Origin: a virus
IMG/VR virus record: IMGVR_UViG_3300044614_001056
Span: 1 to 48,790 of that record
Direction: 5' to 3' (one strand)
DNA length: 48,790 bases
Part shown: positions 24,363 through 45,905 of the stretch, piece by piece
Layout: every line of letters starts with the position of its first letter
How positions within the stretch are numbered: position 1 is the stretch's first letter
The notes under the pieces: model-generated
Told to the model about the DNA's origin: nothing
What the model saw: only the letters and a program-made list of their open reading frames with translations
Database searches by the model: none
Made by a program: the position numbers and the translations under genes

Positions 24363-24409
24363 GCAAGTATGTTTGCCTTACCATATTTTGAACAGAATCT
24401 TAACTTTAG

Positions 24410-25552: not shown

Positions 25553-25574
25553 TTGGTTTCCTCCTTGTCGGTAG

Positions 25575-25701: not shown

Positions 25702-25721
25702 GGCTTTCTCCTTTCTGTGTT

Positions 25722-26699: not shown

Positions 26700-26702
26700 A
26701 AG

Positions 26703-26774
26703 TACGCGATTCAGGAATCGAACCTGATTGAACCGATTATAAGTCGGCCTGCGAAAACCGTCCGCCCATCGCGC
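26703..26774 (-). tRNA. tRNA-Ile (TAT)
   Basis: Acceptor GCGCGAT/ATCGCGT, anticodon stem GCCGA/TCGGT with loop CTTATAA, T-loop TTCGATT. UAU reads the rare AUA codon. Confidence 0.88.
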
Positions 26775-26787
26775 AAGTTATAGATGT

Positions 26788-26815
26788 ATTATACTGATTC
26801 TTCTTCGTTTGTCAA
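26788..26815 (-). promoter_or_regulatory. Sigma70-type promoter upstream of tRNA-Ile
   Basis: Minus strand TTGACA (26815-26810), 16-bp spacer, TATAAT (26793-26788), placed at the very end of the 26789-27064 gene. Confidence 0.8.
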
Positions 26816-27064
26816 GGAGGTAGTATAAACAATCTTGGACTTTTTGTTGTTCACATGGCCAGAAGGAGTCTTCATAAAGTAGTTACTCTTCTGGCGATCT
26901 TCGTCATGACCAAGACGGTAGTTGATTTGCTCTAGACCAAGTTCACGCATTCTCTTTTCAGAAATGCCATTGTCATAGCAAAAACGAATAATCTCTCGTG
27001 CAACTTCGAGTGCTTGCGCTTCGTCGCCGTTAATTGGAATGTCGATGTGTAGTCTGTAAGTCAT
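26789..27064 (-). CDS. Conserved small phage protein, unknown
   Basis: A 91-residue protein. Strand-helix-helix start 'YRLHIDIPINGDEAQALEVA', then 'FCYDNGISEKRMRELGLEQI' and a basic C-terminal third. It overlaps the upstream gene by 4 bp. No function assigned. Confidence 0.6.
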   Translation of the reverse strand: MTYRLHIDIPINGDEAQALEVAREIIRFCYDNGISEKRMRELGLEQINYRLGHDEDRQKSNYFMKTPSGHVNNKKSKIVYTTSLTNEEESV

Positions 27065-27420
27065 TCTTTATATTCTCGCTTGTCGTGCCAGTAACCGTAA
27101 TCGTTCTCTGCTCCGTGCCGTGCCTTTAGATCAATGTATTGGAACACTGCCAATTCTTTGATGAAGTCATCTATCATTTTGATTGGTTCTTCGCTGATTG
27201 GCCATTCTTTGGGTGCTTCTGCTTGCCAATCACATGGACGGCACTTGTCGGGATTCTTTTTGCATACTTCCATTTCTGCAACGATGAGATCGCCCATTTT
27301 AACCATATTCAACAAAGTTTCAAGTGCTTTTGCGCTTTGATAATAGAGATCCTTTTTGGGTAAATCTTCTTCCTTGCGGGCGAGATTGCGGAGTTCGTAA
27401 CACATTTCCTGAATACGCAT
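27061..27420 (-). CDS. Helical protein, unknown
   Basis: A 119-residue protein: N-terminal helices 'MCYELRNLARKEEDLPKKDL', a 'CKKNPDKCRPCDW' Cys cluster near the middle, and a C-terminal 'GAENDYGYWHDKREYKE'. The Cys cluster could bind a metal. Overlaps the downstream gene by 4 bp. Confidence 0.55.
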   Translation of the reverse strand: MRIQEMCYELRNLARKEEDLPKKDLYYQSAKALETLLNMVKMGDLIVAEMEVCKKNPDKCRPCDWQAEAPKEWPISEEPIKMIDDFIKELAVFQYIDLKARHGAENDYGYWHDKREYKE

Positions 27421-27454
27421 AAAGGTATCTCCTTATTAGAATGTCCACAACTAT

Positions 27455-27832
27455 TTAGTATGCCAACTGCTCAAAACCATCATTTGTAGTAAAACGAATG
27501 CTGTGAAAAACCTTAACACACCAAGGCATGCAAAGTTCACAAGGACGAGCCATACGCATGTCGCCAAATTGATTAAACCTAATATTGATTAGGTGCAACT
27601 TCTTTCCAAGAAGCCGCTTTTCGATCTTCTGAAATGCGTCCAGTTCGGAATGCATTTCTTCGTACATATAGCCAATTTGCTTCGCCTTGGGGTGAGTCTT
27701 GAAACGATTCATACCAACAGAAACAATCTTGTGCTTATGCACAATAATTGAGACATGCTTCTTTTGCCTGGGAATATCCAAGCAGATAGGATAAGCAACA
27801 TCAAGCAAAGAATCGAGAGTTGTATTAGTCAT
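27455..27832 (-). CDS. Cytidine/deoxycytidylate deaminase-like protein
   Basis: A 125-residue protein with the zinc-deaminase signature: 'MHSELDAF' (H-x-E, about residues 60-67) and 'PCELCMPWC' (P-C-x2-C, near residue 96), in the right order and spacing. Deaminases of this fold act on free nucleotides (dCMP to dUMP) or RNA; the substrate cannot be told. It lies among tRNA genes and a GMP reductase, so nucleotide supply is the simplest role. Confidence 0.75.
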   Translation of the reverse strand: MTNTTLDSLLDVAYPICLDIPRQKKHVSIIVHKHKIVSVGMNRFKTHPKAKQIGYMYEEMHSELDAFQKIEKRLLGKKLHLINIRFNQFGDMRMARPCELCMPWCVKVFHSIRFTTNDGFEQLAY

Positions 27833-28288
27833 TTAAATCTTTCGCTTACGCGAGATCGCAAACAAGGCCGCAACACCAAGCATAACGGACACGCTCGGTG
27901 CTGGTACTGGCGGACGAACAGGGCAATCGGGACACGGAATACTTTCATTTCCGGCAGTAATCATTGCGACACTTTCGACATAATCGTGTGCAATTGGCAA
28001 AAACATATCCTGATCTACACCCTGCACAGTATACACCAAATTACCCTCACGATACAACTTATGAATCCAAAAACCATCAAATGAACCCATAAAGAACGGA
28101 GTAGCCGTATTGGTATAATTACTAACCGTTGGCATTTCAATTGCTTCTTTAGTTTCAGTAGTCATGCTCAAAGAGCCATCAAACTTAAGTGGTAGTGTGT
28201 ACGAAACACCCATGTAAGTTGAACCCTGATAGTTTGAAGAAGTGAAACGCTGACCTTCGCCGTAAATTGTAGATGTTGTTGTAATCAT
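27833..28288 (-). CDS. Protein with PEP-CTERM-like C-terminal sorting tail
   Basis: A 151-residue beta-rich protein. The last 25 residues have the tripartite form of exosortase signals: proline motif 'VPAPS', a hydrophobic stretch 'VMLGVAALFAIS' and the basic end 'RKRKI'. The N terminus 'MITTTSTIYGEGQRF' is not a signal peptide, which such substrates normally have. A 'CPDCPVRPP' segment precedes the tail. SD AAAGGG is close to ATG 28288. A cargo gene from the host is possible. Confidence 0.55.
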   Translation of the reverse strand: MITTTSTIYGEGQRFTSSNYQGSTYMGVSYTLPLKFDGSLSMTTETKEAIEMPTVSNYTNTATPFFMGSFDGFWIHKLYREGNLVYTVQGVDQDMFLPIAHDYVESVAMITAGNESIPCPDCPVRPPVPAPSVSVMLGVAALFAISRKRKI

Positions 28289-28307
28289 AATATAAACCCT
28301 TTCAAAG

Positions 28308-28381
28308 CGTTCCCGAGTGGATTCGAACCACTGACCATTCGCTTAGAAGGCGAATGCTCTATCCAACTGAGCTACGGGAAC
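28308..28381 (-). tRNA. tRNA-Arg (TCT)
   Basis: Acceptor GTTCCCG/CGGGAAC, anticodon stem TTCGC/GCGAA with loop CTTCTAA, T-loop TTCGAAT. Confidence 0.92.
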
Positions 28382-28386
28382 AAAGA

Positions 28387-28440
28387 ATAATGCGGGCACT
28401 TTCATACCCGCATTATATCAGAAGTTGAATCAACCTTCAA
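28387..28440 (-). promoter_or_regulatory. Promoter with overlapping hairpin upstream of tRNA-Arg
   Basis: Minus strand TTGAAG (28440-28435), 17-bp spacer, TATAAT (28417-28412). The -10 overlaps a 10-bp stem ATAATGCGGG/CCCGCATTAT (28387-28416) that may end upstream transcripts. Confidence 0.6.
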
Positions 28441-28738
28441 CTAATTTTAGTTCAGGAGCAACAACTTCTTGCTGCACCGGAACAACCAAGCCATTGCCAA
28501 ATGCACTGTTGTAGTGATTTGCAAGATCCATCTTAGCATCAACATGCCAAGCAATTGCGTTCCAGCGGACCAAAATACCATTCTCAATCTCACCATAAGG
28601 AATCCACGGAGCCATTCCGAGTTCTCCCTTACCTGCCGGAACAAGAATGGCAGCCTTCTTAAGAAGAAGACCGTTTTCCTGTTGCTCTACCTTTGCGATT
28701 AGTTGTTCGCCCGTCGTCAATCCTACTAGTTGAATCAT
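28430..28738 (-). CDS. Conserved phage protein, Sm-like beta barrel (tentative)
   Basis: A 102-residue protein from ATG 28738 with AAAGGA about 7 nt upstream. 'MIQLVGLTTGEQLIAKVEQQ' followed by 'GLLLKKAAILVP' resembles the strand pattern of small LSm-like phage proteins; the C-terminal half ends 'GNGLVVPVQQEVV'. A nucleic-acid-binding role is only a guess. Common in marine T4-like phages as a hypothetical. Confidence 0.6.
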   Translation of the reverse strand: MIQLVGLTTGEQLIAKVEQQENGLLLKKAAILVPAGKGELGMAPWIPYGEIENGILVRWNAIAWHVDAKMDLANHYNSAFGNGLVVPVQQEVVAPELKLVEG

Positions 28739-28844
28739 TGTCATTTCCTTTCTTTCCAAAGATTCTGTCATAGTTTTCTGAATACTTATCCCAGTCTACT
28801 CGGCGATAAGCATCACCTTTACCAGCGCCGTGTTTACCTTCCAT
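28659..28844 (-). CDS. Small basic phage protein (HGAGKGD family)
   Basis: A 61-residue protein opening with 'GKHGAGKGDAYRRVDWDKYS', a signature I recognise from numerous small phage proteins of unknown function. SD AAGGAG lies upstream of ATG 28844. The last 25 codons overlap the start of the next gene in another frame and may not be conserved. Confidence 0.6.
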   Translation of the reverse strand: MEGKHGAGKGDAYRRVDWDKYSENYDRIFGKKGNDNDSTSRIDDGRTTNRKGRATGKRSSS

Positions 28845-28864
28845 AACATCTCCTTATTCAGAAA

Positions 28865-28936
28865 AGCCACTTACTGGACTCGAACCCGCAACCTGTGCTT
28901 TACAAAAGCACTGCTCTACCATTGAGCTAAAGTGGC
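28865..28936 (-). tRNA. tRNA-Thr (TGT)
   Basis: Acceptor GCCACTT/AAGTGGC, anticodon stem GTGCT/AGCAC with loop TTTGTAA. The T-stem has one mismatch. Confidence 0.85.
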
Positions 28937-28938
28937 AA

Positions 28939-29009
28939 CTGCCCCGCTTGGATTCGAACCAAGAAGAGGAGGTTCAAAGCCTCCCATGTTACCGTTACAT
29001 CACAGGGCA
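28939..29009 (-). tRNA. tRNA-Gln (TTG)
   Basis: Acceptor TGCCCTG/CGGGGCA, anticodon stem GGAGG/CCTCC with loop CTTTGAA, T-loop TTCGAAT. Spaced 2 nt from tRNA-Thr. Confidence 0.9.
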
Positions 29010-29072
29010 TTAAAGAAAGAGCGGAGTTATTTATGCTCCGCTCCTTCAACCCTCAACCCGAGGATTTACCGA

Positions 29073-29327
29073 TTAGCGGCAACCGCCAACGGTGTAGTTA
29101 GAAGGACCAACGAGGGCGACGCGCTTCATGAAGTAGCGAGTGCTGCCATCACGGTTAGTGTGCGAAACGATACGCCAGTTGCCGTAACGCTCAACAGTCT
29201 CCTTGATGTTGCTGATGGTGGCACGGAAATTCTTGACACCAAACATCTTGCTGGCCTGAGCAGCGGTCAATCCGCGACCTGTGTGGAGATAGTTGAGAAC
29301 GCGATCCTTCTTAGTAATAGTTGTCAT
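29073..29327 (-). CDS. Small helix-turn-helix-like protein
   Basis: An 84-residue protein from ATG 29327 (GAAAGG upstream). 'KKDRVLNYLHTGRGLTAAQASKMFG' is split into a helix and an HTH-like 'LTAAQASKMFGVKNFRATIS' near residues 20-39, then a wing 'RYGNWRIVSHTNRDGSTRYF'. This winged-helix form is common in small phage DNA-binding proteins. It may regulate the neighbouring tRNA and early genes. Confidence 0.65.
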   Translation of the reverse strand: MTTITKKDRVLNYLHTGRGLTAAQASKMFGVKNFRATISNIKETVERYGNWRIVSHTNRDGSTRYFMKRVALVGPSNYTVGGCR

Positions 29328-29400
29328 AACGAAACCTTTCAAACCGGCATTCACTTAAACACAAATAAACTCTGCCGTTAAGTTTATTTGCTTTTGGAAG

Positions 29401-29473
29401 TGCCTCCAGCAGGGGTCGAACCTGCGACCTATCGGTTAAAAGCCGAATGCTCTGCCAACTGAGCTATAGAGGC
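29401..29473 (-). tRNA. tRNA-Lys (TTT)
   Basis: Acceptor GCCTCTA paired with TGGAGGC, anticodon loop CTTTTAA, T-loop TTCGACC. First tRNA after the long structured leader. Confidence 0.9.
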
Positions 29474-34127: not shown

Positions 34128-35282
34128 TTATTTTTTCCCCTTTTTATTCATTTCATCTAATTGTTTAGCCAAATCATACATCATTGGTCCGGCTTCAATC
34201 AAATTTCTCATATATGGTTTATATGTTTTTTTCCCACCCGATTTAGAAGATGGTGATTCTACTTTTACTCGTATTTGCAACAATCTGTTTGAACTTTTTA
34301 CAGAATCCACATATAGTTCTACTTTTGGATCACCCTCTTCTTCATCAAACTGTACCAATATTTTTTTACTTTTCAATAGATTGGTATAATCTTTAATAAA
34401 GGTTGGAGTAAATGCTATTCTTTTGTATGTTCCCCTTTCCAACTTTACCAATTCAATACCGGGTTCACCTAGTGTGGCACTATTTGCTATAAGTTTTGTG
34501 AGAGTAGTATAAAAAGCAGAATTTTTAGAATTAATCATACTTTTTAATTCTTTCGCAGCCTGCCCATATACAAACCTTCCCGCTTCCTTTAGTATTTTTT
34601 TTAACGTTTTCAATCTCGCATTTTCTCTTGAAGTAAATACGATATCCTTATCATAATTTTCTAATAGTTTGTTATATTTTTTTTCCAGCCCAACAATGTC
34701 TATGCCAAGCGTTTTTTTCCAAACCGAAATTTGTTTAGTAAATTCCTCACCCGATACCTGAGCAAACTGATCACCACCAGCCACTTTCAGTGAAATCTGA
34801 CGAGAGTAGGTTTGTCCATTATGTGTAATCTTAATGTCCGCCTTGGTCTGCGTTTGTGCGCCAGTACCATCTGAATGAACATCTACCGCATCTATTATGC
34901 CATTCAGAGCGAATTGGATAGCATCGCTTTTCCATGTCTCGTTCACATATTCAATTGCAGATGAATAGAGATCTTTAAAAACATCCATCTGTCTAGTTTT
35001 TTTGACTTTTAGTATATCCGTATCTGCTTGTGGAATGTTAATTTGCAAAGTCATATTGTCTTTGACTTTTGTACCGGGATCGGTAACAGTTTTCTTTAAA
35101 ACCTTCCCAACACTATAAGATCCGTAATACTCTGCCAATACATCTTCCACCATAGCCAAAGTTAAATCTGGATAATTAGATTTCTTATCTTTTGGACGAT
35201 TTATAAATTTAGCAAATAGAGCAGCACCTACAATTGCTTCTGCTATGTTACCTTTATTATATTTTGCTCGTTCGTTGGCCAT
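34128..35282 (-). CDS. Nuclease-like phage protein, PD-(D/E)XK pattern (tentative)
   Basis: A 384-residue protein: 'YNKGNIAEAIVGAALFAKFI' at residues 8-27 (a G-x-x-x-E helix as in restriction-endonuclease folds), then 'ADIKITHNGQTYSRQISLKV' near residues 148-167 (D...x-x-K) and a long helical C-terminal half. The arrangement fits PD-(D/E)XK enzymes but is not proof. Similar large uncharacterised proteins occur in marine myoviruses. It is transcribed with the 33819-34127 gene. Confidence 0.5.
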   Translation of the reverse strand: MANERAKYNKGNIAEAIVGAALFAKFINRPKDKKSNYPDLTLAMVEDVLAEYYGSYSVGKVLKKTVTDPGTKVKDNMTLQINIPQADTDILKVKKTRQMDVFKDLYSSAIEYVNETWKSDAIQFALNGIIDAVDVHSDGTGAQTQTKADIKITHNGQTYSRQISLKVAGGDQFAQVSGEEFTKQISVWKKTLGIDIVGLEKKYNKLLENYDKDIVFTSRENARLKTLKKILKEAGRFVYGQAAKELKSMINSKNSAFYTTLTKLIANSATLGEPGIELVKLERGTYKRIAFTPTFIKDYTNLLKSKKILVQFDEEEGDPKVELYVDSVKSSNRLLQIRVKVESPSSKSGGKKTYKPYMRNLIEAGPMMYDLAKQLDEMNKKGKK

Positions 35283-35497: not shown

Positions 35498-35523
35498 ACA
35501 AAGAACAAAGAACAAATAGAGAG

Positions 35524-35551
35524 CCTCCCTTGATGGGAGGTTTTTCTTTTG
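35524..35551 (+). terminator. Rho-independent terminator
   Basis: CCTCCC/GGGAGG stem with a 5-nt loop followed by TTTTTCTTTT. Confidence 0.85.
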
Positions 35552-35574
35552 GGGGGTTCCTTTTGGAAATGTCT

Positions 35575-35641
35575 ATAGGATTTGACGGGGGTGGGGGTCC
35601 CAAGTAATCATGTATAGGAATTGACGGGGGTGGGGGTCCCA
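35575..35641. repeat. Two 28-bp G-rich direct repeats at the GC-island edge
   Basis: Copies at 35575-35602 and 35614-35641 differ at one position. Each has ATAGGA, TTGAC, then runs GGGGG-T-GGGGG-TCCCA. They lie between the last AT-rich gene and the GC-rich module; no gene is seen in 35552-35905. Confidence 0.8.
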
Positions 35642-35840
35642 TGAGAAGTATTTGAGGGAAACAGGGGATGGGGGAGCCTTGCCCCACCGGGTCCCACCCA
35701 AATATCCCTAGAAATACTGTTTTTCCTGCCAAGTCTTGCTCTAGAAACCCCTATGTTTCGCCTACGATCATAGCGTTTTCAGCACATCGCGCGGCAGGCC
35801 ATAGAAGCCGAAGGCCAGTACTTCGAGCACGCCAGAGTTG

Positions 35841-35871
35841 CTTTGATCCCACTTTGGGTCGGGGATCAAAG
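35841..35871. terminator. Hairpin with 10-bp stem
   Basis: CTTTGATCCC/GGGATCAAAG around an 11-nt loop, in the gap left of the VWA gene. Could act as a terminator or as a protein site. Confidence 0.45.
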
Positions 35872-35901
35872 TTTCTGTGGCTCCCCGGCAACACGGCAAA
35901 C

Positions 35902-35940
35902 GAAAAAGCCCCCACGAACCGGTTAGGGTTCGCAGGGGCT
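35902..35940 (-). terminator. Terminator of the VWA gene
   Basis: Interrupted stem AGCCCC-CGAACC / GGTTCG-GGGGCT followed by TTTTTCG on the minus strand, 24 bp past the VWA stop. Confidence 0.8.
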
Positions 35941-35963
35941 ACTATGGGTTCTGATCTACTGGA

Positions 35964-38267
35964 TCAGGACAGGTTCTTGGCGATGATGTCGGCGACTCGT
36001 CCCATCAGCACACGGCTGGTGCGCTTGGACTTCTCGGTCTTGGCGAAGGTGTTCTTCAGCTGCGTACCGGTCAATCCGGTCAGGTTAGCCTCCTTCACCG
36101 TCTTGGTGGGGACGATGATGAAGTTGGAGTCGAACCCGTCACCCGGCAGGGCGGCGAAGTTGTTCTCCTTCATCGACTCCTTGGCGATCTCCGCGACCTT
36201 GGGATTCGTACCGATCAGCATATGATCGAAGTACCGGGCGCTGCCGATGAGGAAGAACCCGACGACATTGGCACCGGTCTTGTGCTTCAGGTACATACGC
36301 AGGATGGCCGTGGTGGAGCACTGCATGGACACATTCGTACCCCACCGGGTCTTTTCCTTGCGAACCGGGATCGTCCAGGTCTTGCTACCGTCGACCAGCA
36401 CCGGGATGGCGTTAGCGTCACCCTTGGCGGTGTAGATGTCGAACGGGTGCGAGCCAGTCTCACCATCGGTCAGGAAGCACACATTGACAACCTGCAGGCG
36501 ATTGTCCCGCTTGAACTTCTCGGTCACGGGAACCATCGCGTACACAGCTTCATCGAGCGGCGTACCACCGAGGTTGAATCCCGCAGGAGTCTTGGCGGTG
36601 TACGCATTCGAGTCCTCCGCGATCCGCAGCATCATACCGGCGGCCACATCGAACTCGGTCTTGCTCATGCGGCTCGACAGAGTGTTGAGCAGGTGGAAGT
36701 GGCTGAAGCGGAGGTAATCACCAGTAGTCTGATACCCGTGCTCGTCCTTCTCGTACTCCTTGCACACGGAGGGACGGGTGAAGGACTTGCTCGACATCTT
36801 GCCGGTGAGGTTCATCTCCGCGTACTCCGGCGAGTACGAATCGGAGAACAGATAGACCTCGTAGGGGATGTTGACCGACTTGCAGAACATGACGAGGTTC
36901 AGCAACTGGTAGATCGTCTCGCGGAGGTTCTGGCTCATCGAACCCGACCAGTCCATGCAGAAGATCATGCCGTGGTTCTTACCCTTGGCGATCTCCTCGG
37001 TGGCGAGGAAGATGTCATCAGCGAACTTGTAGTCGTTGATACGATCCATGTCGATGATACCGCAACGGGCCGAACGCGTACGGCGCGACTCGTCGGCAGC
37101 CATCTTCATCTCAAACTGCTTGACGAGCATCTTGATGGCGTCCGCGCTGTTCGTGCGGAAATCCTTGAGCAGCTTCTCGTTGTTGAGGCCGTTACGCTGC
37201 GCGACAGCGACGAACTGGGGAACGATGGTCTTGAAGTCAACGAGGATCGAATCCATGTTGAGCGTCGGCATCTTCCACCGACGAACCTGCGTGGCCGAAG
37301 TGTCCACCATGTTCTTGCGGTTACGCTCCTCGGCTTCCGCAGTCACCGAACGAGTCGGCTTGCCGTTCTGATTACCACCGGTCGACGCGGTGTTGCCGGG
37401 CTTGGACTCGGACTTGGACGGCTGCGAGCCGTTACCCTGGTCCTTGTCCTGCTTCTGCTCACCCTGGCCCTGACCGTCCTGCGACTGATCGTCGCTCTGG
37501 TCACCCGCGCAATCGGCGGGATCGTTACCCTGACCCTGACCAGTCGGCTGGGTGCCGGTGTTGCCGGAACCCGAGGGCTGACCCTGCGGACCGTTGTTGG
37601 GCTTGTTCTGCTGCTGCTTCGCAGCCTTACGCGCACCATCGTACTCGTAGATCTCGGCAGCGAGAGCGACCACATCGTCCCAGGTCTTCATCGCCTCAAG
37701 GCGAGGAAGGAACGCAGCTTCGTCCGCAGTCATCGGCACGGCAGTGACGCCGTAGATGCCAGACTTGAAGTGGACATTGAGACGGTCGAGCAGCGGGAGA
37801 TCCTGCATCGCTTCGGTGTTGAGCGACTTGACGCCAAAGAAGTCCTTGTCGAACAGATACTTGCCCGCTTCGGCGTAGCAACGCTTCAGACCGGGGAAGC
37901 GATCCTTCATCTGGCGGTCGATACGAATGTCCTCGCACACATTGAGGTAGTCGTGAATCACGCGCACATCGACGCCGGTATCCGCATCGACAGCGGCGTG
38001 CGACTGGTCGATGACGGTGAGATCAGCCGGAGTGAAGAGAGCGTGACCGACCTCGTGAGCGCAGAGCATATCGTACAGGTCACCGCTCATCTCCTGCCAG
38101 ACGGGGAGAGTGAGAACGCGAGTGCCGGTATCGAACGATGCAGTCTGCGCGGTCGCGTCATGCATGACCGTGAGATTCTCGGTAGCCAGCAGACGCGCGA
38201 ATGCGTCCTTGGCAGCCGTGTTGATGGCGAACGGGTTAGAAACGGTAGTGGTAGGAGTCTGTCCCAT
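35964..38267 (-). CDS. Metallopeptidase-like and von Willebrand A domain protein (CobT/DUF2201-like)
   Basis: A 767-residue protein. The N-terminal third has a zinc-peptidase motif H71-E-V-G-H75 ('CAHEVGHALFTP'). Residues about 215-330 form a Gln/Gly/Asp-rich linker like those of CobT. The C-terminal third is a VWA domain with the MIDAS motif D439-W-S-G-S-M. It resembles the DUF2201-type metallopeptidase-VWA proteins that partner MoxR ATPases; phage versions are often labelled CobT. It is divergent from the MoxR gene 289 bp away. The TACAAT box ends 9 nt before the ATG with no SD, so the mRNA is predicted to be leaderless. Confidence 0.8.
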   Translation of the reverse strand: MGQTPTTTVSNPFAINTAAKDAFARLLATENLTVMHDATAQTASFDTGTRVLTLPVWQEMSGDLYDMLCAHEVGHALFTPADLTVIDQSHAAVDADTGVDVRVIHDYLNVCEDIRIDRQMKDRFPGLKRCYAEAGKYLFDKDFFGVKSLNTEAMQDLPLLDRLNVHFKSGIYGVTAVPMTADEAAFLPRLEAMKTWDDVVALAAEIYEYDGARKAAKQQQNKPNNGPQGQPSGSGNTGTQPTGQGQGNDPADCAGDQSDDQSQDGQGQGEQKQDKDQGNGSQPSKSESKPGNTASTGGNQNGKPTRSVTAEAEERNRKNMVDTSATQVRRWKMPTLNMDSILVDFKTIVPQFVAVAQRNGLNNEKLLKDFRTNSADAIKMLVKQFEMKMAADESRRTRSARCGIIDMDRINDYKFADDIFLATEEIAKGKNHGMIFCMDWSGSMSQNLRETIYQLLNLVMFCKSVNIPYEVYLFSDSYSPEYAEMNLTGKMSSKSFTRPSVCKEYEKDEHGYQTTGDYLRFSHFHLLNTLSSRMSKTEFDVAAGMMLRIAEDSNAYTAKTPAGFNLGGTPLDEAVYAMVPVTEKFKRDNRLQVVNVCFLTDGETGSHPFDIYTAKGDANAIPVLVDGSKTWTIPVRKEKTRWGTNVSMQCSTTAILRMYLKHKTGANVVGFFLIGSARYFDHMLIGTNPKVAEIAKESMKENNFAALPGDGFDSNFIIVPTKTVKEANLTGLTGTQLKNTFAKTEKSKRTSRVLMGRVADIIAKNLS

Positions 38268-38276
38268 AGTGCGCCC

Positions 38277-38305
38277 ATTGTACCAGGTCCGTCTGGCGCT
38301 TGCAA
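38277..38305 (-). promoter_or_regulatory. Sigma70-type promoter of the VWA gene
   Basis: Minus strand TTGCAA (38305-38300), 17-bp spacer, TACAAT (38282-38277). Start expected about 3 nt before the AUG. Confidence 0.75.
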
Positions 38306-38448
38306 GCCCCTAGAATATAGGGAATAACTGGGGGCGGACGCAGCAGGCCCTGTAAATCTAGGGGTCCTAGGTCCGATAACGCGCTGTCGATGCAGGGCGC
38401 CGCGTAAACCCTTGCTATTACTGGACTTACGATTTCTTGGGCGCCCCC

Positions 38449-38477
38449 TTGCGCCGGACCCAGGGATCGGGTACAAT
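38449..38477 (+). promoter_or_regulatory. Sigma70-type promoter of the MoxR gene
   Basis: TTGCGC (38449-38454), 17-bp spacer, TACAAT (38472-38477). The spacer matches the 42889-42905 spacer at 13 of 17 positions. An 80-nt leader with a GGCCC/GGGCC hairpin follows. Confidence 0.75.
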
Positions 38478-38556
38478 GGCTGCACACGGCCCGCAGTGGG
38501 CCACAGACTTCCGTACCGTCTAGTTTCACTCTTTCCTCTTTCGGAGAATCACTACT

Positions 38557-39945
38557 ATGGCTAACGCCACCAACAACAAGATCGCTACCTTCGTCAACCT
38601 CTGCGTGACCGAGGGATACAAGTCGCCGCTTTCCCGTTCGCAGATCAAGGCGCTGCGCGCGAAGTACGGTTGCCCGATGCCCGCGTGGCTGATGAAGGAC
38701 GAGGACCGTCGCGTCGGTCACGGCAAGTACGCTTGCGCGGAGCTCGACGCTGCGTGGTCGACTCGCAACGGCGTCGCTGCTGCTGCGTCCGTTCCGGCTC
38801 CCGTGTCCGCTCCGGTCGCTGTCGCGGCTCCGGCTGCTCCTGCGATGCAGGCTCGCATCGCCCGTGCGGAGTCCACGCTTGACGGTAACTTCATCCCGTC
38901 GAAGCTGATGACCTATGTGCCGTACGGCAACTACAAGGACATCGAAGCCATCGTGAAGTCCAAGCGTTGGTATCCGACGATGGTGACCGGTCTGTCGGGT
39001 AACGGCAAGACGACCATGATTGAGCAGGTGTGCGCGAAGCTCGGTCGTGAATGCATCCGCGTCAACCTCACCAGCCAGACCGATGCGGACGACCTGCTCG
39101 GTGGGTTCCGCCTCGTCAACGGTGACACCGTGTGGCAGGACGGTCCGGTCGTGACCGCGATGAAGCGCGGTGCGATCCTCCTGCTCGACGAGATGGATAC
39201 CGCGTCGCACAAGATCATGTGCCTCATGCGTGTCCTCGAAGGTAAGGGTGCGTTCCTGCCGAAGATCAACACCCAGGTCGAGCCTGCTACCGGGTTCAAT
39301 GTGTTCGCTACGATGAACACCAAGGGCCAGGGTGGCGAGGGTTCCGAGCAGTTCTCCTCGCGTAGCATTCTCGATGAGGCGCTCCTCGAACGCTTCAGCG
39401 GCACCTACGAGCAGGACTACCCCACCAAGGCGGTGGAGAAGAAGATCGTCCTCGGCAACATGGAGGCGCTGTCGTGCGTGGACGAGCCGTTCGCTGACTG
39501 CCTGGTGAAGTGGGCCGAGATGATCCGCAAGACCTACATGGAAGGTGGTGCGGACGCGATCATCACGACCCGTCGTCTGTGCATGATCGTGGACAACTTC
39601 AGCATCTTTGCTGACCGCACCAAGGCTGTGACCGCTGCGTGTGCGCGCTTCAGCAACTCGACCAAGGAGGCGTTCGTGAACCTCTACACCAAGGTCGACG
39701 CGGAAGTGTCCACGACCGCTGATCCGGCTCGCGCTGCTGCGATGGAGGCGGAAGCCGCCGCCGCCGCTGTCGCCAAGGCTACGCGGTTCGACCTCAAGGG
39801 TGCTGCGTTTCAGGATCGCGCCACGGTGAAGAACCTCGGTGCGGCGTGGGACGCGACTGCCAAGGTTTGGTATGTCACGGGTGACCAGTACCGCGCGAAC
39901 CCGAGCGCGTTCGACCCCTTCAAGCCGACTCCGGTGTCGGCCTAA
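38557..39945 (+). CDS. MoxR-type AAA+ ATPase with N-terminal adaptor domain and C-terminal DUF5710-like domain
   Basis: A 462-residue protein. Residues about 20-65 hold the repeated adaptor domain ('SRSQIKALRAKYG', 'PAWLMKDEDRR', 'GHGKYACAE'). The AAA+ core has Walker A G145-L-S-G-N-G-K-T-T, Walker B 'LLLDEMD' at 208-214 and sensor-1 'FATMNTKG'; phage homologues are often called CobS. The last 60 residues ('KNLGAAWDATAKVWYVTG') match the DUF5710 style seen in conjugative-primase proteins. Divergent from the VWA gene; together they should form an ATP-driven remodelling complex. No cobalamin genes are nearby. Confidence 0.88.
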   Translation: MANATNNKIATFVNLCVTEGYKSPLSRSQIKALRAKYGCPMPAWLMKDEDRRVGHGKYACAELDAAWSTRNGVAAAASVPAPVSAPVAVAAPAAPAMQARIARAESTLDGNFIPSKLMTYVPYGNYKDIEAIVKSKRWYPTMVTGLSGNGKTTMIEQVCAKLGRECIRVNLTSQTDADDLLGGFRLVNGDTVWQDGPVVTAMKRGAILLLDEMDTASHKIMCLMRVLEGKGAFLPKINTQVEPATGFNVFATMNTKGQGGEGSEQFSSRSILDEALLERFSGTYEQDYPTKAVEKKIVLGNMEALSCVDEPFADCLVKWAEMIRKTYMEGGADAIITTRRLCMIVDNFSIFADRTKAVTAACARFSNSTKEAFVNLYTKVDAEVSTTADPARAAAMEAEAAAAAVAKATRFDLKGAAFQDRATVKNLGAAWDATAKVWYVTGDQYRANPSAFDPFKPTPVSA

Positions 39946-39963
39946 TCCAACGAAAGGAACCAC

Positions 39964-40245
39964 ATGAAGAATCCTTCTTCCAACAGCACGACCAACACTA
40001 GTGACCAACTCGCACTCATCGACTGGACATACGATGCCTGGCTGAAGTGCGAAGATGGGAGCGACAAGGAGGAGCAGTTGCACACCTACCTTGGCGAACT
40101 CCTGCTGACGTTTGCCCGTTGCAATCCGCCAGAGCGCCTGCTCCCGCAGGAGTACACCCACTTCATGAACATCTCCCGCGAGTTGTGTCTCTCGGGTGGC
40201 ATGAGTGAGGACGAGTTTGATTCCAACGACATCGAGAACGCCTAA
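39964..40245 (+). CDS. Small acidic protein, unknown
   Basis: A 93-residue protein from ATG 39964, GAAAGGA upstream, 18 bp after MoxR and probably in its operon. Helical core 'WTYDAWLKCEDGSDKEEQLH' and 'YTHFMNISRELCLSGGMSED', acidic C terminus. No family recognised. Confidence 0.55.
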   Translation: MKNPSSNSTTNTSDQLALIDWTYDAWLKCEDGSDKEEQLHTYLGELLLTFARCNPPERLLPQEYTHFMNISRELCLSGGMSEDEFDSNDIENA

Positions 40246-40262
40246 CAGAAAGACCGCACAGT

Positions 40263-40439
40263 ATGAAGCTCACCAAGAAGAAGCCCGTTCGCAAGACCCC
40301 CGTCCGCACTCGCATCGACGCGCTGATCGAAGATATCCAAGTCTTTGTAGCCGAATACGAGAACAACTCCACAAACGACTATCATAACGAGATCCTGCGC
40401 GTCCGTGATGAACTCCGTAAGATCAAGCGCATCGCCTAA
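40263..40439 (+). CDS. 58-residue basic helical protein, unknown
   Basis: From ATG 40263 to TAA 40439: 'MKLTKKKPVRKTPVRTRIDA' then an amphipathic helix 'ALIEDIQVFVAEYENN' and a charged end. In-line with MoxR, 17 bp after the preceding stop. Looks like a small nucleic-acid-binding or adaptor protein. Confidence 0.55.
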   Translation: MKLTKKKPVRKTPVRTRIDALIEDIQVFVAEYENNSTNDYHNEILRVRDELRKIKRIA

Positions 40440-40459
40440 CAACAGAAAGAGAACCAACA

Positions 40460-40804
40460 ATGAACACTCTCAACGCAACCATTCCCGCCGCATACCTCAA
40501 GTGGGTTGATGCAGCAATCGCATCTGGCCTCTCTACCGACCTCATCAGTCGTAAGCAGGCTCTGAAGGTGAAGCAAGCGACTGGCGCCCGTCTTCCGCGA
40601 TGGCTGATGAAGGACCCGAGTCGTCGTCGTGGTCGTGGCAACTATTCGTGTCCCGAGATCCCCGAGCGGATCAAGGAACTCGAAGCTGCGCGTAACGCCA
40701 AGCCCGCCAACATGGCGTTCCGTGGTAAGGGTATCCCGCAGATCGCCCGTATGGCGCTGCGCGGTAAGGTTTCGATTCGCACCAAGATCAAGCGGAGGAA
40801 GTGA
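40460..40804 (+). CDS. Stand-alone adaptor domain protein (paralogue of the MoxR N-terminal domain)
   Basis: A 114-residue protein. Residues about 28-74 repeat the MoxR N-terminal domain: 'SRKQALKVKQATG', 'LPRWLMKDPSRRRGRGNYSC' and 'PE'. The C-terminal 40 residues are strongly basic ('VSIRTKIKRRK'). Because the same domain is fused to the ATPase, this protein could compete with or recruit substrates to it, or both may bind the same ligand. Four genes downstream of the ATPase in the same direction. Confidence 0.75.
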   Translation: MNTLNATIPAAYLKWVDAAIASGLSTDLISRKQALKVKQATGARLPRWLMKDPSRRRGRGNYSCPEIPERIKELEAARNAKPANMAFRGKGIPQIARMALRGKVSIRTKIKRRK

Positions 40805-40805
40805 T

Positions 40806-41027
40806 ATGTGTAACTGCACCGAGACTCACGAATGCGATGACTGCGCCGATGAGCGCGCTGTCGCCGCCGAAGAGATGGCTGATATCGAACGCGAGATCAA
40901 CATCTTCCAAGAGTTCTACGCCGTCCACAACCTGAAGCCGGTTGTGCGTAAGCCTGTCAACGAACCCATCACCAACGAGGAGTACGATCTCCTCGCTTCC
41001 ATCGACTCCAACGGAGGTTTCTGCTAA
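40806..41027 (+). CDS. Small Cys-rich protein, unknown
   Basis: A 73-residue protein from ATG 40806, with AGCGGAGGAAG just upstream. The N terminus 'MCNCTETHECDDCADE' has four Cys and a His (C-x-C-x5-C-x2-C), possibly a small zinc or redox site. The rest is acidic helix. It begins right after the adaptor gene stop and shares one base with the next gene. Confidence 0.6.
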   Translation: MCNCTETHECDDCADERAVAAEEMADIEREINIFQEFYAVHNLKPVVRKPVNEPITNEEYDLLASIDSNGGFC

Positions 41028-41524
41028 TGTCCGACACCATTCTTCGCCGTGCCCACATGTCCGCCATTCAGGAGGTTTCGTCCCTCAATCAGCGCATCAA
41101 GCGGCTCGAAGCCGGTCTTGTGGTCGCCGAGTGCATGAACCAGTACCTCGCCGCTCGACTCCAGCTGCACGGTAAGCCGTACAAGATGGATACGGCAGTC
41201 CTCACGCTCGGCCAGGCAGCCATTGATGTTGAGGACAATGCTGCCGCACAGAAGTGCATCGACGCTCTGCGTGAACTGATGGGACTGGCTCGGAAGTTCA
41301 CCGACGAAGCCATCAAGGAACACAAGAACAATGTCGATCTCTACACCGACGACCAGATGACCGCAGATGGGATCATCCGCTCGGTGTTGCAGAGCGTGGA
41401 CAAGAAGCTTTTGGCTCACCGTGACGCCGAGTTCAAGAAGCATGGCTTCACCGAGGAGGATCTCAAGGATCTGATCGCCGAACTGGAGCGCGACCTTGGC
41501 CTTGGCGGGAAGGATTCCGAGTAA
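41027..41524 (+). CDS. Helical protein, unknown
   Basis: A 165-residue, mostly helical protein: 'AIQEVSSLNQRIKRLEAGLV' coiled coil, 'YTDDQMTADGIIRSVLQSVD' and a C-terminal acidic helix. Overlaps the preceding stop by one base. No function recognised. Confidence 0.6.
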   Translation: MSDTILRRAHMSAIQEVSSLNQRIKRLEAGLVVAECMNQYLAARLQLHGKPYKMDTAVLTLGQAAIDVEDNAAAQKCIDALRELMGLARKFTDEAIKEHKNNVDLYTDDQMTADGIIRSVLQSVDKKLLAHRDAEFKKHGFTEEDLKDLIAELERDLGLGGKDSE

Positions 41525-41530
41525 TCCTAC

Positions 41531-41558
41531 TTGACTTTGTATGAAACCCTTATATAAT
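41531..41558 (+). promoter_or_regulatory. Sigma70-type promoter
   Basis: TTGACT (41531-41536), 16-bp spacer, TATAAT (41553-41558), starting 7 bp after the preceding stop and serving the second adaptor gene. Confidence 0.8.
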
Positions 41559-41604
41559 ATGTTCATACATCCGTGTGGATGAACAATACGAATAAGGAGT
41601 CATC

Positions 41605-41913
41605 ATGCAAATCAAGTCAGACTACACGAAGAACCAAGTAGAGTTCTTCAACAAGGCGAAGGAAATGTTCCCGAACCAGGCGTCGTTCTCCCGCAAGCAA
41701 CTTCTCGCAGTCAAGGATAGCCTTGGCTACAGCGTCATTCCCGTGTGGATCACTGGCGACCCGGCGCGAAAGGTGAATCGAGGTATGTACAGTCTCCCCG
41801 AGTGTACGACCGACCTCACCTCGCTGCCAGTGACCAACGATACTCGTGGTGCGCCACGGAAGAGCCAGTCAGCGCCGGCCCTCACGACGGCTGACAACAG
41901 CGCACAGTCCTGA
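41605..41913 (+). CDS. Second stand-alone adaptor domain protein
   Basis: A 102-residue protein whose residues about 28-70 again carry the domain: 'SRKQLLAVKDSLG', 'IPVWITGDPARKVNRGMYS' and 'LPE'. It is more diverged than the 40460 copy. A Ser/Thr-rich tail follows. SD AAGGAG is 6-8 nt before ATG 41605. It has its own promoter (41531-41558) and terminator, so it can be regulated separately from the ATPase operon. Confidence 0.7.
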   Translation: MQIKSDYTKNQVEFFNKAKEMFPNQASFSRKQLLAVKDSLGYSVIPVWITGDPARKVNRGMYSLPECTTDLTSLPVTNDTRGAPRKSQSAPALTTADNSAQS

Positions 41914-41931
41914 TAGCAGGACACTTGGGAA

Positions 41932-41951
41932 ATGGCGGGGAAACCCGCCAT
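41932..41951 (+). terminator. Terminator
   Basis: ATGGCGGG/CCCGCCAT stem with a short loop, followed by a pyrimidine tract CCTCCTTTTCTT. Confidence 0.75.
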
Positions 41952-41963
41952 CCTCCTTTTCTT

Positions 41964-42254
41964 ATGAGAGCAATGAAAGAACCACAGGCAGAAACCCAGA
42001 CGCACACCTTTGTCAACCCCAAAACGATCATGCGTCGTTGTTGGTGGACTGGCAAGACCTCCATCATCACGGTGGAGGAAGATGGATACATGGAGTGGCT
42101 GGCTTCCGGCAATATGAAGCCGTTGGAGGTCTGCCTTCCCATGCTAACCCGCGAGGAGCGGGAGCTGCTCATCTCTGGCTTGTCTGAAGCCGGATACGAA
42201 GCCGTTGTGGGCCACGGTTTCGATGAGGATGAGCAGGACGAATCAGGTGATTGA
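41964..42254 (+). CDS. Small protein, unknown
   Basis: A 96-residue protein from ATG 41964 (or 41973). 'FVNPKTIMRRCWWTGKTSII' and 'LTREERELLISGLSEAGYEA' suggest a small mixed fold; acidic C terminus. No SD is clear for the first ATG. No family recognised. Confidence 0.55.
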   Translation: MRAMKEPQAETQTHTFVNPKTIMRRCWWTGKTSIITVEEDGYMEWLASGNMKPLEVCLPMLTREERELLISGLSEAGYEAVVGHGFDEDEQDESGD

Positions 42255-42257
42255 GCC

Positions 42258-42285
42258 TTGACATTCAGACTGGCCCGATTACAAT
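42258..42285 (+). promoter_or_regulatory. Sigma70-type promoter
   Basis: TTGACA (42258-42263), 16-bp spacer, TACAAT (42280-42285), 9 nt before ATG 42295. Confidence 0.75.
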
Positions 42286-42294
42286 AGAGGACAT

Positions 42295-42462
42295 ATGAGC
42301 GACAGAGATCGAAACTGGCGTAGAGAACGAGAAGCGCAGCACCGCAAGAGGAAAGAGAAGCAGTCGCCCCGCGTTTCCCATCGTCCGAGACAGGACGATG
42401 ACCACGACCGTCGATGGGATCGTTTCGACCTCCCCCATGAGGATCACGACCTAGACGACTGA
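42295..42462 (+). CDS. 55-residue Arg/Asp-rich protein, unknown
   Basis: ATG 42295 to TGA 42462. The first half is strongly basic ('DRDRNWRREREAQ', 'HRKRKEKQSPR'), the second half Asp/His-rich ('HEDHDLDD'). The short distance from the -10 box suggests a transcript starting within a few bases of the AUG. A UUCG-loop terminator follows immediately. Unknown role. Confidence 0.55.
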   Translation: MSDRDRNWRREREAQHRKRKEKQSPRVSHRPRQDDDHDRRWDRFDLPHEDHDLDD

Positions 42463-42470
42463 TCGTGAAG

Positions 42471-42492
42471 GGGGCTGGCTTCGGCCAGCCCC
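42471..42492 (+). terminator. Hairpin terminator with UUCG loop
   Basis: Perfect 9-bp stem GGGGCTGGC/GCCAGCCCC closing a TTCG loop, 9 bp after the 42462 stop. The T-run is poor. Confidence 0.7.
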
Positions 42493-42562
42493 ATCTAACC
42501 GACGAAGCAAGTCTACCGCTTCTGTGAGAGTAGACAACACCAACCCGTTTGAGGATTTCAGT

Positions 42563-42796
42563 ATGAAGAATCGCAACAACAACATCATCGACCGCACCAT
42601 CAACATCTTCCGCGACTATATGCGTGAGCAGGCTGCCATGCTCGACTCTCGTTCGTTCGAGAACGCTCGGCAGTGCCGCATCGTCGCCCGTGAGGGTGGG
42701 TTCCTTGCGAAGTTTGATCGCGCTGTCGCCGCGGACAAGTCGCTTCGCGTGTTCACGGACAACGACTACAAGTACGGTCGTGCCGTCAGCGCCTAA
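42563..42796 (+). CDS. Small basic protein, unknown
   Basis: A 77-residue protein from ATG 42563 with GAGGA 7 nt upstream; a frame from GTG 42524 is open but lacks an SD. 'NNIIDRTINIFRDYMREQAA' then 'EGGFLAKFDRAVAADKS'. No function recognised. Confidence 0.55.
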   Translation: MKNRNNNIIDRTINIFRDYMREQAAMLDSRSFENARQCRIVAREGGFLAKFDRAVAADKSLRVFTDNDYKYGRAVSA

Positions 42797-42833
42797 TGCG
42801 TAACGACAACTGAATACAAAGCCCCTCGGGGTT

Positions 42834-42857
42834 GAGCCACCTTCGGGTGGCTCTTTT
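42834..42857 (+). terminator. Rho-independent terminator
   Basis: GAGCCACC/GGTGGCTC stem with TTCG loop, then TTTTC. Confidence 0.85.
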
Positions 42858-42882
42858 CATTGGGCCACCTAGAAAGCCCCCC

Positions 42883-42911
42883 TTGACACGGCCCCCAAGA
42901 TCGGGTATACT
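42883..42911 (+). promoter_or_regulatory. Sigma70-type promoter
   Basis: TTGACA (42883-42888), 17-bp spacer, TATACT (42906-42911). The spacer closely matches that of the MoxR promoter. Confidence 0.8.
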
Positions 42912-42940
42912 GGCCCCATCTAACGAATAGGACTAATCAC

Positions 42941-43531
42941 ATGAAGATCGCTTTCAACCCTCGTTTCGTCCCCTCTCGCACTTTCATGCACGACATCGTT
43001 GGTCGTGTGGACGAGTACCGCTTCACTCGCAAGGAGTGGGCGCGCCTGCGTGGTTCGTCTGCTCATGGCGTGCAGTCGTTCTTCATCCCCAACAACGCCA
43101 AGCCGCATCAGCGGAATCACTACGCCCTCAAGGTGTACGACACGCTGGTCGAAGCGTTCGCCGCGTGGCAGCGTCAGGGAATCGCCGCGCGTAAGCACCT
43201 CGCCCCGCCTGTTCGTCGCATCTGCAAGTTCGTCATTGACGGACTGGAGCCGCGTTGGGGATACCAGTCCTGCGTGGCTAGCCATATCAACCGCGTGGGT
43301 GGTTGGGATGACTGGGGGTGGGGGCCCTCCGTGACGCTAGAGCGCGATCTCCTGCGGCTGGATATCTCGGGTACGGTCAACGACGACCAGCGGTATGTTG
43401 GTATCCGCCGCGCCAAGCGTCTCGGCAAGCGTACTCGCATCCGTGGTGATCTCCACGGTGGTAATGTCGGATTCTTCAAGCACCGGCTCGTCTGCATCGA
43501 CTTCGGCACGGAGTCGATTGATTTCCGCTAA
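42941..43531 (+). CDS. Divergent protein-kinase-fold protein
   Basis: A 196-residue protein. Near the C terminus 'DLHGGNVGFF' (residues 170-179) and 'LVCIDFGT' (183-190) reproduce the catalytic-loop D-x-H-x-x-N and DFG of kinase-like and aminoglycoside-phosphotransferase folds, in the right order and spacing. A clear ATP-binding Lys is not obvious in the N-terminal half, and the protein is short for a full kinase, so it may be a minimal or pseudo-kinase. It has its own promoter in the GC-rich module. Confidence 0.65.
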   Translation: MKIAFNPRFVPSRTFMHDIVGRVDEYRFTRKEWARLRGSSAHGVQSFFIPNNAKPHQRNHYALKVYDTLVEAFAAWQRQGIAARKHLAPPVRRICKFVIDGLEPRWGYQSCVASHINRVGGWDDWGWGPSVTLERDLLRLDISGTVNDDQRYVGIRRAKRLGKRTRIRGDLHGGNVGFFKHRLVCIDFGTESIDFR

Positions 43532-43546
43532 TCAGAGGACACACAC

Positions 43547-44164
43547 ATGGGATACTGCTTTGACATCACAGACTCTAGTTTCCACATCGAGGAACGACAC
43601 TACCCCGACATGATGGATCACCTCATCCAGTTTCACAATCGGCTGATCGCGCAGAAGGTGGAAGTCAAGTGGGTGGATCTGCCGGCGGCGCTGTCGCTGC
43701 TCGAAGCCGGTGATCTGATTGGATTCTTCGCTGCGTGGAACTACGAGGTCAAGATCGACATCACGACCGGCGATATCGTGGATATCACCACGATGGCAGA
43801 GAAGATCGCCGACGAGGAGAAGCTGTGGGAACAGATTGCGCCTTGGGTGGTGGATTGCTCATACATCCAATGCCACGGAGAAGACGGAGCGTATTGGCGT
43901 TGGGTGTGGCGTGAAGGTGCCTACTACTATGTGGAGGCAACCCTGCGCTTCGATGACCCCATCGACTGTGGCTACCGCATCGTCAATGCCAACATGATGG
44001 ACGACGAACTCCGCGTCGCTCGCAAGGCTGTTGGGTACGACGAAGATCAGGTGCCGCTGAAGCCAGATCCGGTGACCACGCTCAACGAGATCATCAACAG
44101 CATCCACCAACCGATTGACACGCAGTACGCTCTGAACGCACTCCGAACGAAGGGAACGACATGA
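43547..44164 (+). CDS. Phage protein of unknown function
   Basis: A 205-residue protein. 'GYCFDITDSSFHIEERHYPD' begins a mixed fold; the middle 'GEDGAYWRWVWREGAYYYVE' is aromatic-rich, a pattern I associate with small phage-only domains. The C terminus is helical. It lies 15 bp after the kinase-like gene and overlaps the next by 4 bp, so the two are likely co-translated. Confidence 0.6.
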   Translation: MGYCFDITDSSFHIEERHYPDMMDHLIQFHNRLIAQKVEVKWVDLPAALSLLEAGDLIGFFAAWNYEVKIDITTGDIVDITTMAEKIADEEKLWEQIAPWVVDCSYIQCHGEDGAYWRWVWREGAYYYVEATLRFDDPIDCGYRIVNANMMDDELRVARKAVGYDEDQVPLKPDPVTTLNEIINSIHQPIDTQYALNALRTKGTT

Positions 44165-44577
44165 CGCCACTAGTGACCGGAACAAAATCTGCAATGCACG
44201 CCGACATCATCACCGACATGGAGTATTTGGCTGCCGAGATGGTGGCAGGTAAGATTTCAATCCTGCGCGGAACTCACATCGAGGTGCAACTGACCAATCT
44301 GCTTCTCAAGGCAGCCAGAACGGTTCGAGATCAGCAGTATCAGATCATCGAGCTTGAGGAAGCCAATACGGCACTCGCCCGCACCGCGGTCCCCGATACG
44401 GTCGAGGGAATAAGCGATCACTACCAGCAGCTGATCGTGGAGAACGAGAAACTGAAGAAGCGTAATGCCAACCAAGCGGCATTGATCGACGCCATCAATC
44501 AGGGACGAGCAAAGAAAGTCGCCGGTGGTGGTTGGACACACGACAACATCCCACACACAGAGGTAACCAGCCCATGA
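44161..44577 (+). CDS. Coiled-coil protein, unknown
   Basis: A 138-residue protein with helical segments and a coiled coil 'YQQLIVENEKLKKRNANQAA'. The C terminus is Gly-rich. ATGA overlaps on both sides couple it to its neighbours. No family recognised. Confidence 0.55.
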   Translation: MTPLVTGTKSAMHADIITDMEYLAAEMVAGKISILRGTHIEVQLTNLLLKAARTVRDQQYQIIELEEANTALARTAVPDTVEGISDHYQQLIVENEKLKKRNANQAALIDAINQGRAKKVAGGGWTHDNIPHTEVTSP

Positions 44578-44978
44578 GCAAGCCACAGCCAGACATCTTT
44601 CAACCCATCACCGAAGCCACCGCGCTTGAGCATGAACTCTCCATCATGCTCAACGCCAAACAGGTTGTCGATCACTTCATGCCAGTCCCCGGCTCCTACC
44701 CACCAGGCCCTCAAGTGGCCAAAGCCGTCCGCGTCATTCAGGCGCTGATGATCTTGGTACACGCCCAGCAGAAGGTCGTCATCGAAGCAGAGAATGCCCT
44801 TCAGCCCACTCTAGACCAACTGGGTGATACCAAGATGGCTCTCAAGGAAGCCGAACAGCGTGTCGTTGCTGTAGAGAAGATGAGGGATGACGCCGAACAA
44901 CTCTACAACGATCTGCTCGTACAGATGGCCAATTTGGAGCAGGGTATTCACGACGAGTACAACTCCCTACAGAGCTAA
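44574..44978 (+). CDS. Coiled-coil protein, unknown
   Basis: A 134-residue protein from ATG 44574 (overlaps the previous stop by 4 bp; GAGG 10 nt upstream). A 'VPGSYPPGPQVAKAVRVIQA' hinge separates two helical parts; the second half is a long coiled coil ('ALKEAEQRVVAVEKMRDDAE'). Last gene before the module's terminator. Confidence 0.55.
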   Translation: MSKPQPDIFQPITEATALEHELSIMLNAKQVVDHFMPVPGSYPPGPQVAKAVRVIQALMILVHAQQKVVIEAENALQPTLDQLGDTKMALKEAEQRVVAVEKMRDDAEQLYNDLLVQMANLEQGIHDEYNSLQS

Positions 44979-44998
44979 CCAAGGTCTTCATGTGATTG

Positions 44999-45034
44999 CC
45001 CCCGGCATACCGTAACTGGATGTCGGGGGTTTTG
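44999..45034 (+). terminator. Rho-independent terminator
   Basis: CCCCCGGCAT/ATGTCGGGGG stem (one internal mismatch), 11-nt loop, then TTTTGC. It closes the GC-rich operon. Confidence 0.85.
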
Positions 45035-45112
45035 CATTTGGTCCTGCCAAACGGCGACAGCGCCGGCGCCAGAGTCTACAGCACCCTTTGGCGGAATAAA
45101 AATGATCGTCGA

Positions 45113-45482
45113 AATAGTTCTGGCTCCCGTTTGGCGCGCGGTCGAAGCCGGCATTTCACCCTAATACAGTCTAAATCCATGTCGAGCCAATCGACATAGC
45201 TCGAGCTAACCCAGATATTCCGTTTAATTAGTTCTGGCGCTCAAAAACCCCTAGATTTACAGGGGCCACAAGGCAAAGTTTCCCAGGTTTTAGATTTAAT
45301 AGTTCTGGCGAGCACGAGAAGACGCTCGCCAAATGGAAGTTTTACGACCCGGGCTGTCAAAACTGCCGTTCGATTGGAAGTTTAGCCATTTGGCGCACGC
45401 ATTGGCTCCAGAACCAGCTCGAGCAGGTGGAGCCAAAACAATTATAACTTGATACTCGGGGTGGCTCCTATATACTAGGAAC
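45113..45482. repeat. Intergenic repeats sharing AGTTCTGGC / ATTGGAAGTT
   Basis: This 370-bp gap has no gene. It holds AATAGTTCTGGC-type copies at 45113, 45227 and 45298 and TGGAAGTT copies near 45333 and 45371, which share the core of the array at 46009-46283. A GGCGAGC/GCTCGCC hairpin lies at 45307-45330. A promoter for the next gene occupies the right end. Confidence 0.65.
45449..45476 (+). promoter_or_regulatory. Sigma70-type promoter of the metalloprotease gene
   Basis: TTGATA (45449-45454), 16-bp spacer, TATACT (45471-45476), 6 nt before ATG 45483: start predicted on or next to the A of AUG. Confidence 0.75.
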
Positions 45483-45905
45483 ATGAAGAGTACAGACCGA
45501 CGAGTTCTGGCTTTCATAAGTCAACTGCGCGAGGAGTGCCGCGCAGCCGGTGTTCGCATCATCTTCAAAAATGTCGCCAAATTGCGCGACTGGGATGACA
45601 AAAACAAAAAAACTCTGGATGGCTACTTTGTTCACCCAACAAAAAAATATTCTGGTTACATCATAGTAGCTACCAAAGTACCTCTTCCTAAACTTTTACA
45701 CACTTTGGCGCATGAATACGTCCATTTTTTGCAATGGCGCGCCAAAAAACCATCATTTTACACGTGGTCTTACCTCGCCCACGAAAATATTACTGAAAAA
45801 TCTGCGATTCGGCTCCTCGAAGCACATAATTTGCCCATAAACCTTCGAGTTCGCAGGAAAAAGTCCAGAGCCTACATCAAAAAACTGAAGTCTGAGGGAT
45901 TCTAA
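45483..45905 (+). CDS. Small zinc metalloprotease-like protein (HExxH)
   Basis: A 140-residue protein. 'LLHTLAHEYVHFLQW' contains H77-E-Y-V-H81, the zinc-binding helix of SprT/ImmA-type minimal peptidases, followed by 'HENITEKSAIRLLE', which may supply a third ligand. The C terminus is basic ('RVRRKKSRAYIKKLKSEGF'), suggesting nucleic-acid binding. No SD is present and the promoter geometry predicts a leaderless mRNA. It is isolated between two repeat-rich noncoding blocks. Confidence 0.7.
   Translation: MKSTDRRVLAFISQLREECRAAGVRIIFKNVAKLRDWDDKNKKTLDGYFVHPTKKYSGYIIVATKVPLPKLLHTLAHEYVHFLQWRAKKPSFYTWSYLAHENITEKSAIRLLEAHNLPINLRVRRKKSRAYIKKLKSEGF

Follow-up and report, generated by a model that had tools for sequence, protein, structure and literature searches.

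A predicted winged-helix-like domain is shared by a phage CobS-type ATPase and by stand-alone small proteins encoded beside it

Introduction

What does a domain of ~55 residues do that one phage encodes at the N-terminus of an AAA+ ATPase and again as two separate proteins close by? The question is raised by the IMG/VR virus record IMGVR_UViG_3300044614_001056, of which we analyzed positions 1 to 48,790 (48,790 nucleotides, hereafter the window). A first-pass annotation had read the locus as a MoxR ATPase system with a swappable adaptor or inhibitor module and knew of no description of the domain. Likewise, our literature search, limited to open-licence papers, found no description of the domain or of its stand-alone forms.

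One domain in three proteins

The ATPase and the two small proteins, here called SA1 and SA2, are encoded on the plus strand of the window exactly where they had been placed (Table 1). Their proposed common domain is borne out by BLASTP, which links SA1 to the ATPase (E 4e-10), SA2 to the ATPase (E 3e-5) and SA1 to SA2 (E 6e-11). To keep the homology test free of circularity, we used a leave-one-out profile: its 66 sequences were N-domains of CobS from other phages, with neither the window clade nor any stand-alone copy among them. Run against all six frames of the window, this profile matched SA2 (1.8e-14), the ATPase (2.3e-13) and SA1 (2.9e-6) and no fourth ORF, the next best match having an E of about 0.07 (0.074). 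SA1 belongs to the ATPase operon, two small ORFs lying between it and the ATPase at spacings of about 20 nt, and SA2 has a promoter of its own, both as the first-pass annotation had it.

Table 1 Positions of the features described in the window

Feature	Position	Strand	Basis
384-aa protein, function unknown	34128-35282	-	phrog_33928 and phrog_3560 matches
CobT-like partner, zincin (HEVGH) and VWA/MIDAS (DWSGSM), 767 aa	35964-38267	-	phrog_459, E 8e-164
GTCCGATAACGCGCTGTC in the divergent peptidase/ATPase intergenic region	38371-38388	+	by eye; unique in the window
Phage CobS-type AAA+ ATPase, 462 aa	38557-39945	+	phrog_249, E 1.4e-94; Pfam AAA_5, 3e-21
Predicted winged-helix-like N-domain of the ATPase, residues about 12-63	38590-38745	+	BLASTP, profile, AF2
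SA1, stand-alone domain plus basic C-terminal tail; part of the ATPase operon	40460-40804	+	BLASTP, AF2, charge
Sigma-70-like promoter of SA2, TTGACT-16-TATAAT	41531-41558	+	sequence consensus
Operator-like repeats TGTATGAA / TTCATACATCC-GTGT-GGATGAA, over and just after the SA2 promoter	41538-41583	+	
SA2, separate copy of the domain, helix 3 GYSVIPVWITGDP, tail DTRGAPR	41605-41913	+	BLASTP, profile

The peptidase/CobS/stand-alone region coincides with a GC-rich block (35500-45500, 0.51-0.62) in an otherwise AT-rich genome (0.29-0.45). We rejected an assembly artefact as the source of this block because a second contig crosses its left edge at 97% identity. Elsewhere in the window, fourteen tRNA genes, all on the minus strand, lie at 20716-29473.

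The ATPase is a phage CobS with a CobT-like partner

Judged from its sequence, the window ATPase is the phage CobS (phrog_249, annotated 'porphyrin biosynthesis') of T4-like cyanophages and pelagiphages, with which it shares the AAA+ family, the N-domain and a zincin-VWA gene nearby. Of the MoxR system proposed earlier, the pairing of an AAA+ ATPase with a zincin-VWA protein stood, whereas its status as an unplaced system did not, the ATPase being a well-known phage protein. Pfam and an AF2 model give it an N-domain, a disordered linker, an AAA_5 core and a C-terminal DUF5710. Walker A (GLSGNGKT) and Walker B (LLLDE) are both conserved in the alignment with phage CobS. DUF5710 (Pfam 2.1e-7, window 39808-39909) is absent from most other aligned phage CobS; the long linker, the divergent partner and the two stand-alone N-domains likewise set the window apart from phage CobS in general.

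The partner matches phrog_459, a family annotated 'peptidase' in cyanophages, over its full length and is encoded divergently, as noted before and unlike phrog_459 of the compared phages. The MIDAS and HExxH motifs of the phage 'peptidase' (PMC8651126) also occur in the window partner, for which catalysis is putative; HEVGH and DWSGSM are kept in six phages, with HECAH in one of the six. CobS and the CobT-like 'peptidase' are a known pair in cyanophages and pelagiphages, and cyanophage records counted by first name (365, 61 and 24) are equal for the two genes.

It has been argued that the phage 'peptidase' is CobT, and a viral cobaltochelatase with host CobN has been proposed (PMC8651126). Here viral CobS/CobT and host CobN would insert cobalt, and the small proteins would tune the enzyme. 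In line with that proposal for viral CobST, solved CobS is matched by the AAA core (1.6e-34). However, the bacterial CobS structures align with the AAA part only, so the N-domain was not found there by sequence, and the partner retains its zincin motif. The homology of cyanophage cobS to bacterial cobS has moreover been doubted, the cyanophage protein being argued to be non-homologous (PMC5083919). Overall, we consider a phage cobaltochelatase improbable.

Bacterial CobS/CobT, NorQ/CbbQ and midasin, AAA+ proteins of the MoxR clade, resemble the window ATPase in the AAA core, and bacterial CobS does so also in having a VWA partner; a winged-helix-like N-domain was not found in these proteins by sequence.

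Predicted fold and charge of the domain

The AF2 model of SA1 (83 rows) comprises a helix (residues 10-21), a short strand (28-30), two helices (31-41 and 47-51) and a hairpin (56-63), with a core pLDDT of about 92. The ATPase N-domain shows the identical order of elements at residues 2-58 (pLDDT about 95), followed by the linker at a pLDDT of about 40, the AAA core and DUF5710. The predicted folds of the ATPase N-domain and the stand-alone protein, whose comparison the first-pass annotation had called for, agree, and structural difference thus does not speak against a common domain. The order helix, short strand, helix, helix, hairpin of both models is that of a winged helix. We call the domain 'winged-helix-like' from this modeled topology; homology does not prove it.

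Neither by fold nor by sequence did PDB searches link the domain significantly to a known winged helix, and Pfam gave no hit over threshold for it. Candidates from PDB profile and Foldseek searches (EF-hands, LRRK2 and similar) were discarded as chance-level matches. Among viral models, the closest folds are those of CobS proteins and of a stand-alone protein of 101 aa. When the weak Pfam matches of 83 domain members are ranked by frequency, HTH families make up about half of the top 25. In the arrangement of helices 2 and 3 and the wing, the domain resembles AbiEi_4 (PF13338), a winged helix with an RGxY(x)LP wing. AbiEi_4 weakly matches two of the 83 members (E 0.13, not significant), and we rejected it as the identity of the window domain, where its model gives no match.

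A domain tethered flexibly to an AAA ring, as the AF2 model has it, would also suit a protein adaptor or inhibitor, the main rival to a role on nucleic acid. The N-domain would then recruit a protein substrate, and the free copies would deliver it or compete at the ring or at its VWA-zincin partner. Winged helices can also be protein-binding modules, which we count for such an adaptor. The mean charge of the domain (+4.6 in stand-alone and +2.9 in fused copies) and the operator-like DNA described below suit nucleic acid better, and we regard the adaptor as a tentative alternative.

The domain is widespread and its free copies stay close to CobS

The domain is not a peculiarity of the window phage but a normal part of the CobS family. 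Iterated profile searches placed it at the N-terminus of CobS in nearly all of 80 CobS loci from viral contigs, and 39 of 41 whole records searched contain it. In these records the copies are either CobS N-termini or small ORFs near CobS, except in L119 and L120. L119 encodes a 130-aa ORF with a weak domain match away from the CobS pattern. In L120 (173-1135, minus strand) a weak N-terminal copy is found on an AAA ATPase of phrog_1250, a family of unknown function that, unlike CobS, belongs to another AAA family.

Stand-alone copies are a minority, found in 5 of the 80 contigs, which were chosen by CobS alone and many of which are fragments. In two diverged phages, L008 and L009, the window order is retained from the divergent partner through the ATPase to SA1 and SA2, their ATPases being 71% and 55% identical to that of the window. 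Their SA2 orthologues are 61-63% identical, with GYSVIPVWITGDP and the DTRGAPR tail invariant in the three phages. An adaptor could explain such an invariant helix-3 block and tail. The same conservation, together with the promoter of SA2 and the recurrence of stand-alone copies in separate lineages, argues against SA1 and SA2 being non-functional duplicates of the ATPase N-terminus. Although the tree weakly places SA1 with the ATPase domain from its own clade, we consider such duplicates very unlikely. Overall the tree is poorly resolved, yet its well-supported branches require three or more switches between the fused and the stand-alone state.

A scan with the sequence of a stand-alone protein of another type gathered a further 66 viral contigs. 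With one exception at most, the small gene in them adjoins CobS and/or the peptidase; it is on the CobS strand, and the gap to CobS is 58-191 nt upstream or 63-83 nt downstream. Among 63 distinct stand-alone genes, 43 start within about 30 nt (usually about 20) past the peptidase stop and 7 directly follow CobS. Two small ORFs occur without an identified CobS: that of L148 lies just after the peptidase and is followed by an upstream repeat of the CobS type, and in L187 the contig starts within the small ORF. That the free copies are so nearly always linked to CobS and the peptidase, and not to other genes, also counts for an adaptor. Searching 50,697 phage records by tblastn with the stand-alone copies returned CobS N-termini or nothing, with no stand-alone copy, and a scan of genome contigs with SA2 gave no match.

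The architecture of CobS, partner and free N-domain is real and recurs, in a phage family that is well known but poorly understood. The presence of the domain on the ATPase and as mini-proteins beside the ATPase and its partner suggests a dedicated control or targeting part of the CobS/CobT-like machine.

Control DNA at CobS, peptidase and SA2

The operator-like repeats at the SA2 promoter are unique in the window. In L008, 21 of 22 of their positions are kept compared with 34 of 56 outside, and in L009 the repeats/palindrome are absent. By eye, an element similar to GTCCGATAACGCGCTGTC is found in both L008 and L009. The SA2 leader was also considered as an RNA hairpin and rejected (z -0.14 and -0.72).

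The marine group with stand-alone copies carries a direct repeat, GAACAWA-N4-GAACAWA, with an 11-bp period upstream of both CobS and the peptidase. About 30 marine phage contigs have it (L064, L130-L180 and others), many with two sites and almost none away from CobS/peptidase. Over 1.35 Mb of loci we counted 48 GAACAWA pairs at spacer 4, not all of them independent events since some of the contigs nearly duplicate one another. No other spacer between 0 and 15 gave more than 1 pair, and 0-1 pairs are expected in simulated sequence. With repeats common to both upstream regions, the CobS and peptidase genes look co-regulated, as far as can be read from sequence. Other lineages (L134, L136, L138, L059, L168 and L189-L194) seem, by eye, to share other palindromes upstream of the two genes, for example GTGTTG...CAACAC and GTTGAATTCAATTCAAC. 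Some of the repeats upstream of CobS and the peptidase may be terminators.

The stand-alone proteins may not be the readers of these operators, since L064 and L034 differ in operator type despite a nearly identical stand-alone helix 3. Helix 3 does not covary with operator type, and this gives no support to the stand-alone proteins as readers of the GAACAWA repeat. HTVC008M and L020 have this direct repeat before the peptidase, yet no stand-alone copy was found in them; the only domain copy found in HTVC008M is that of CobS.

Given the winged-helix order of the models and the operator-like sequences at these genes, the swappable substrate adaptor proposed in the first-pass annotation is no more likely than nucleic-acid binding or regulation.

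Discussion

With moderate confidence, we favor a reading in which free copies of the targeting domain of the ATPase, probably nucleic-acid-binding, regulate or compete with the CobS/CobT-like machine. In many marine phages a flexible linker would hold the winged-helix-like domain at the exterior of the CobS-type AAA+ ring, and the stand-alone proteins are this N-domain produced separately. They would most likely share a binding target with the ring's own N-domain and may thus regulate, compete for or pre-mark the target of the CobS/CobT-like (zincin-VWA) machine. For this target, nucleic acid, including the control DNA of the CobS, peptidase and SA genes, appears more probable than a protein substrate. 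DNA binding, competition and autoregulation by the stand-alone copies are what we infer from the homology, the element order of the models, the recurrent gene neighborhood and the conserved DNA elements.

A more far-reaching version, which we think rather unlikely, would make the CobS/CobT-like pairs DNA-directed remodelling or proteolysis machines and not cobalt chelatases. The N-domain would target the ring to DNA, and the free copies would set its target or shut down the two-gene regulon via the shared operator.

T4-like cyanophages have CobS and its partner among their core genes, and what the two do has been guessed only from the name. A very common motor ATPase of marine phages carries this N-domain. 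The N-domain, its free copies and the control element shared by the two genes are direct handles on the job of the machine.
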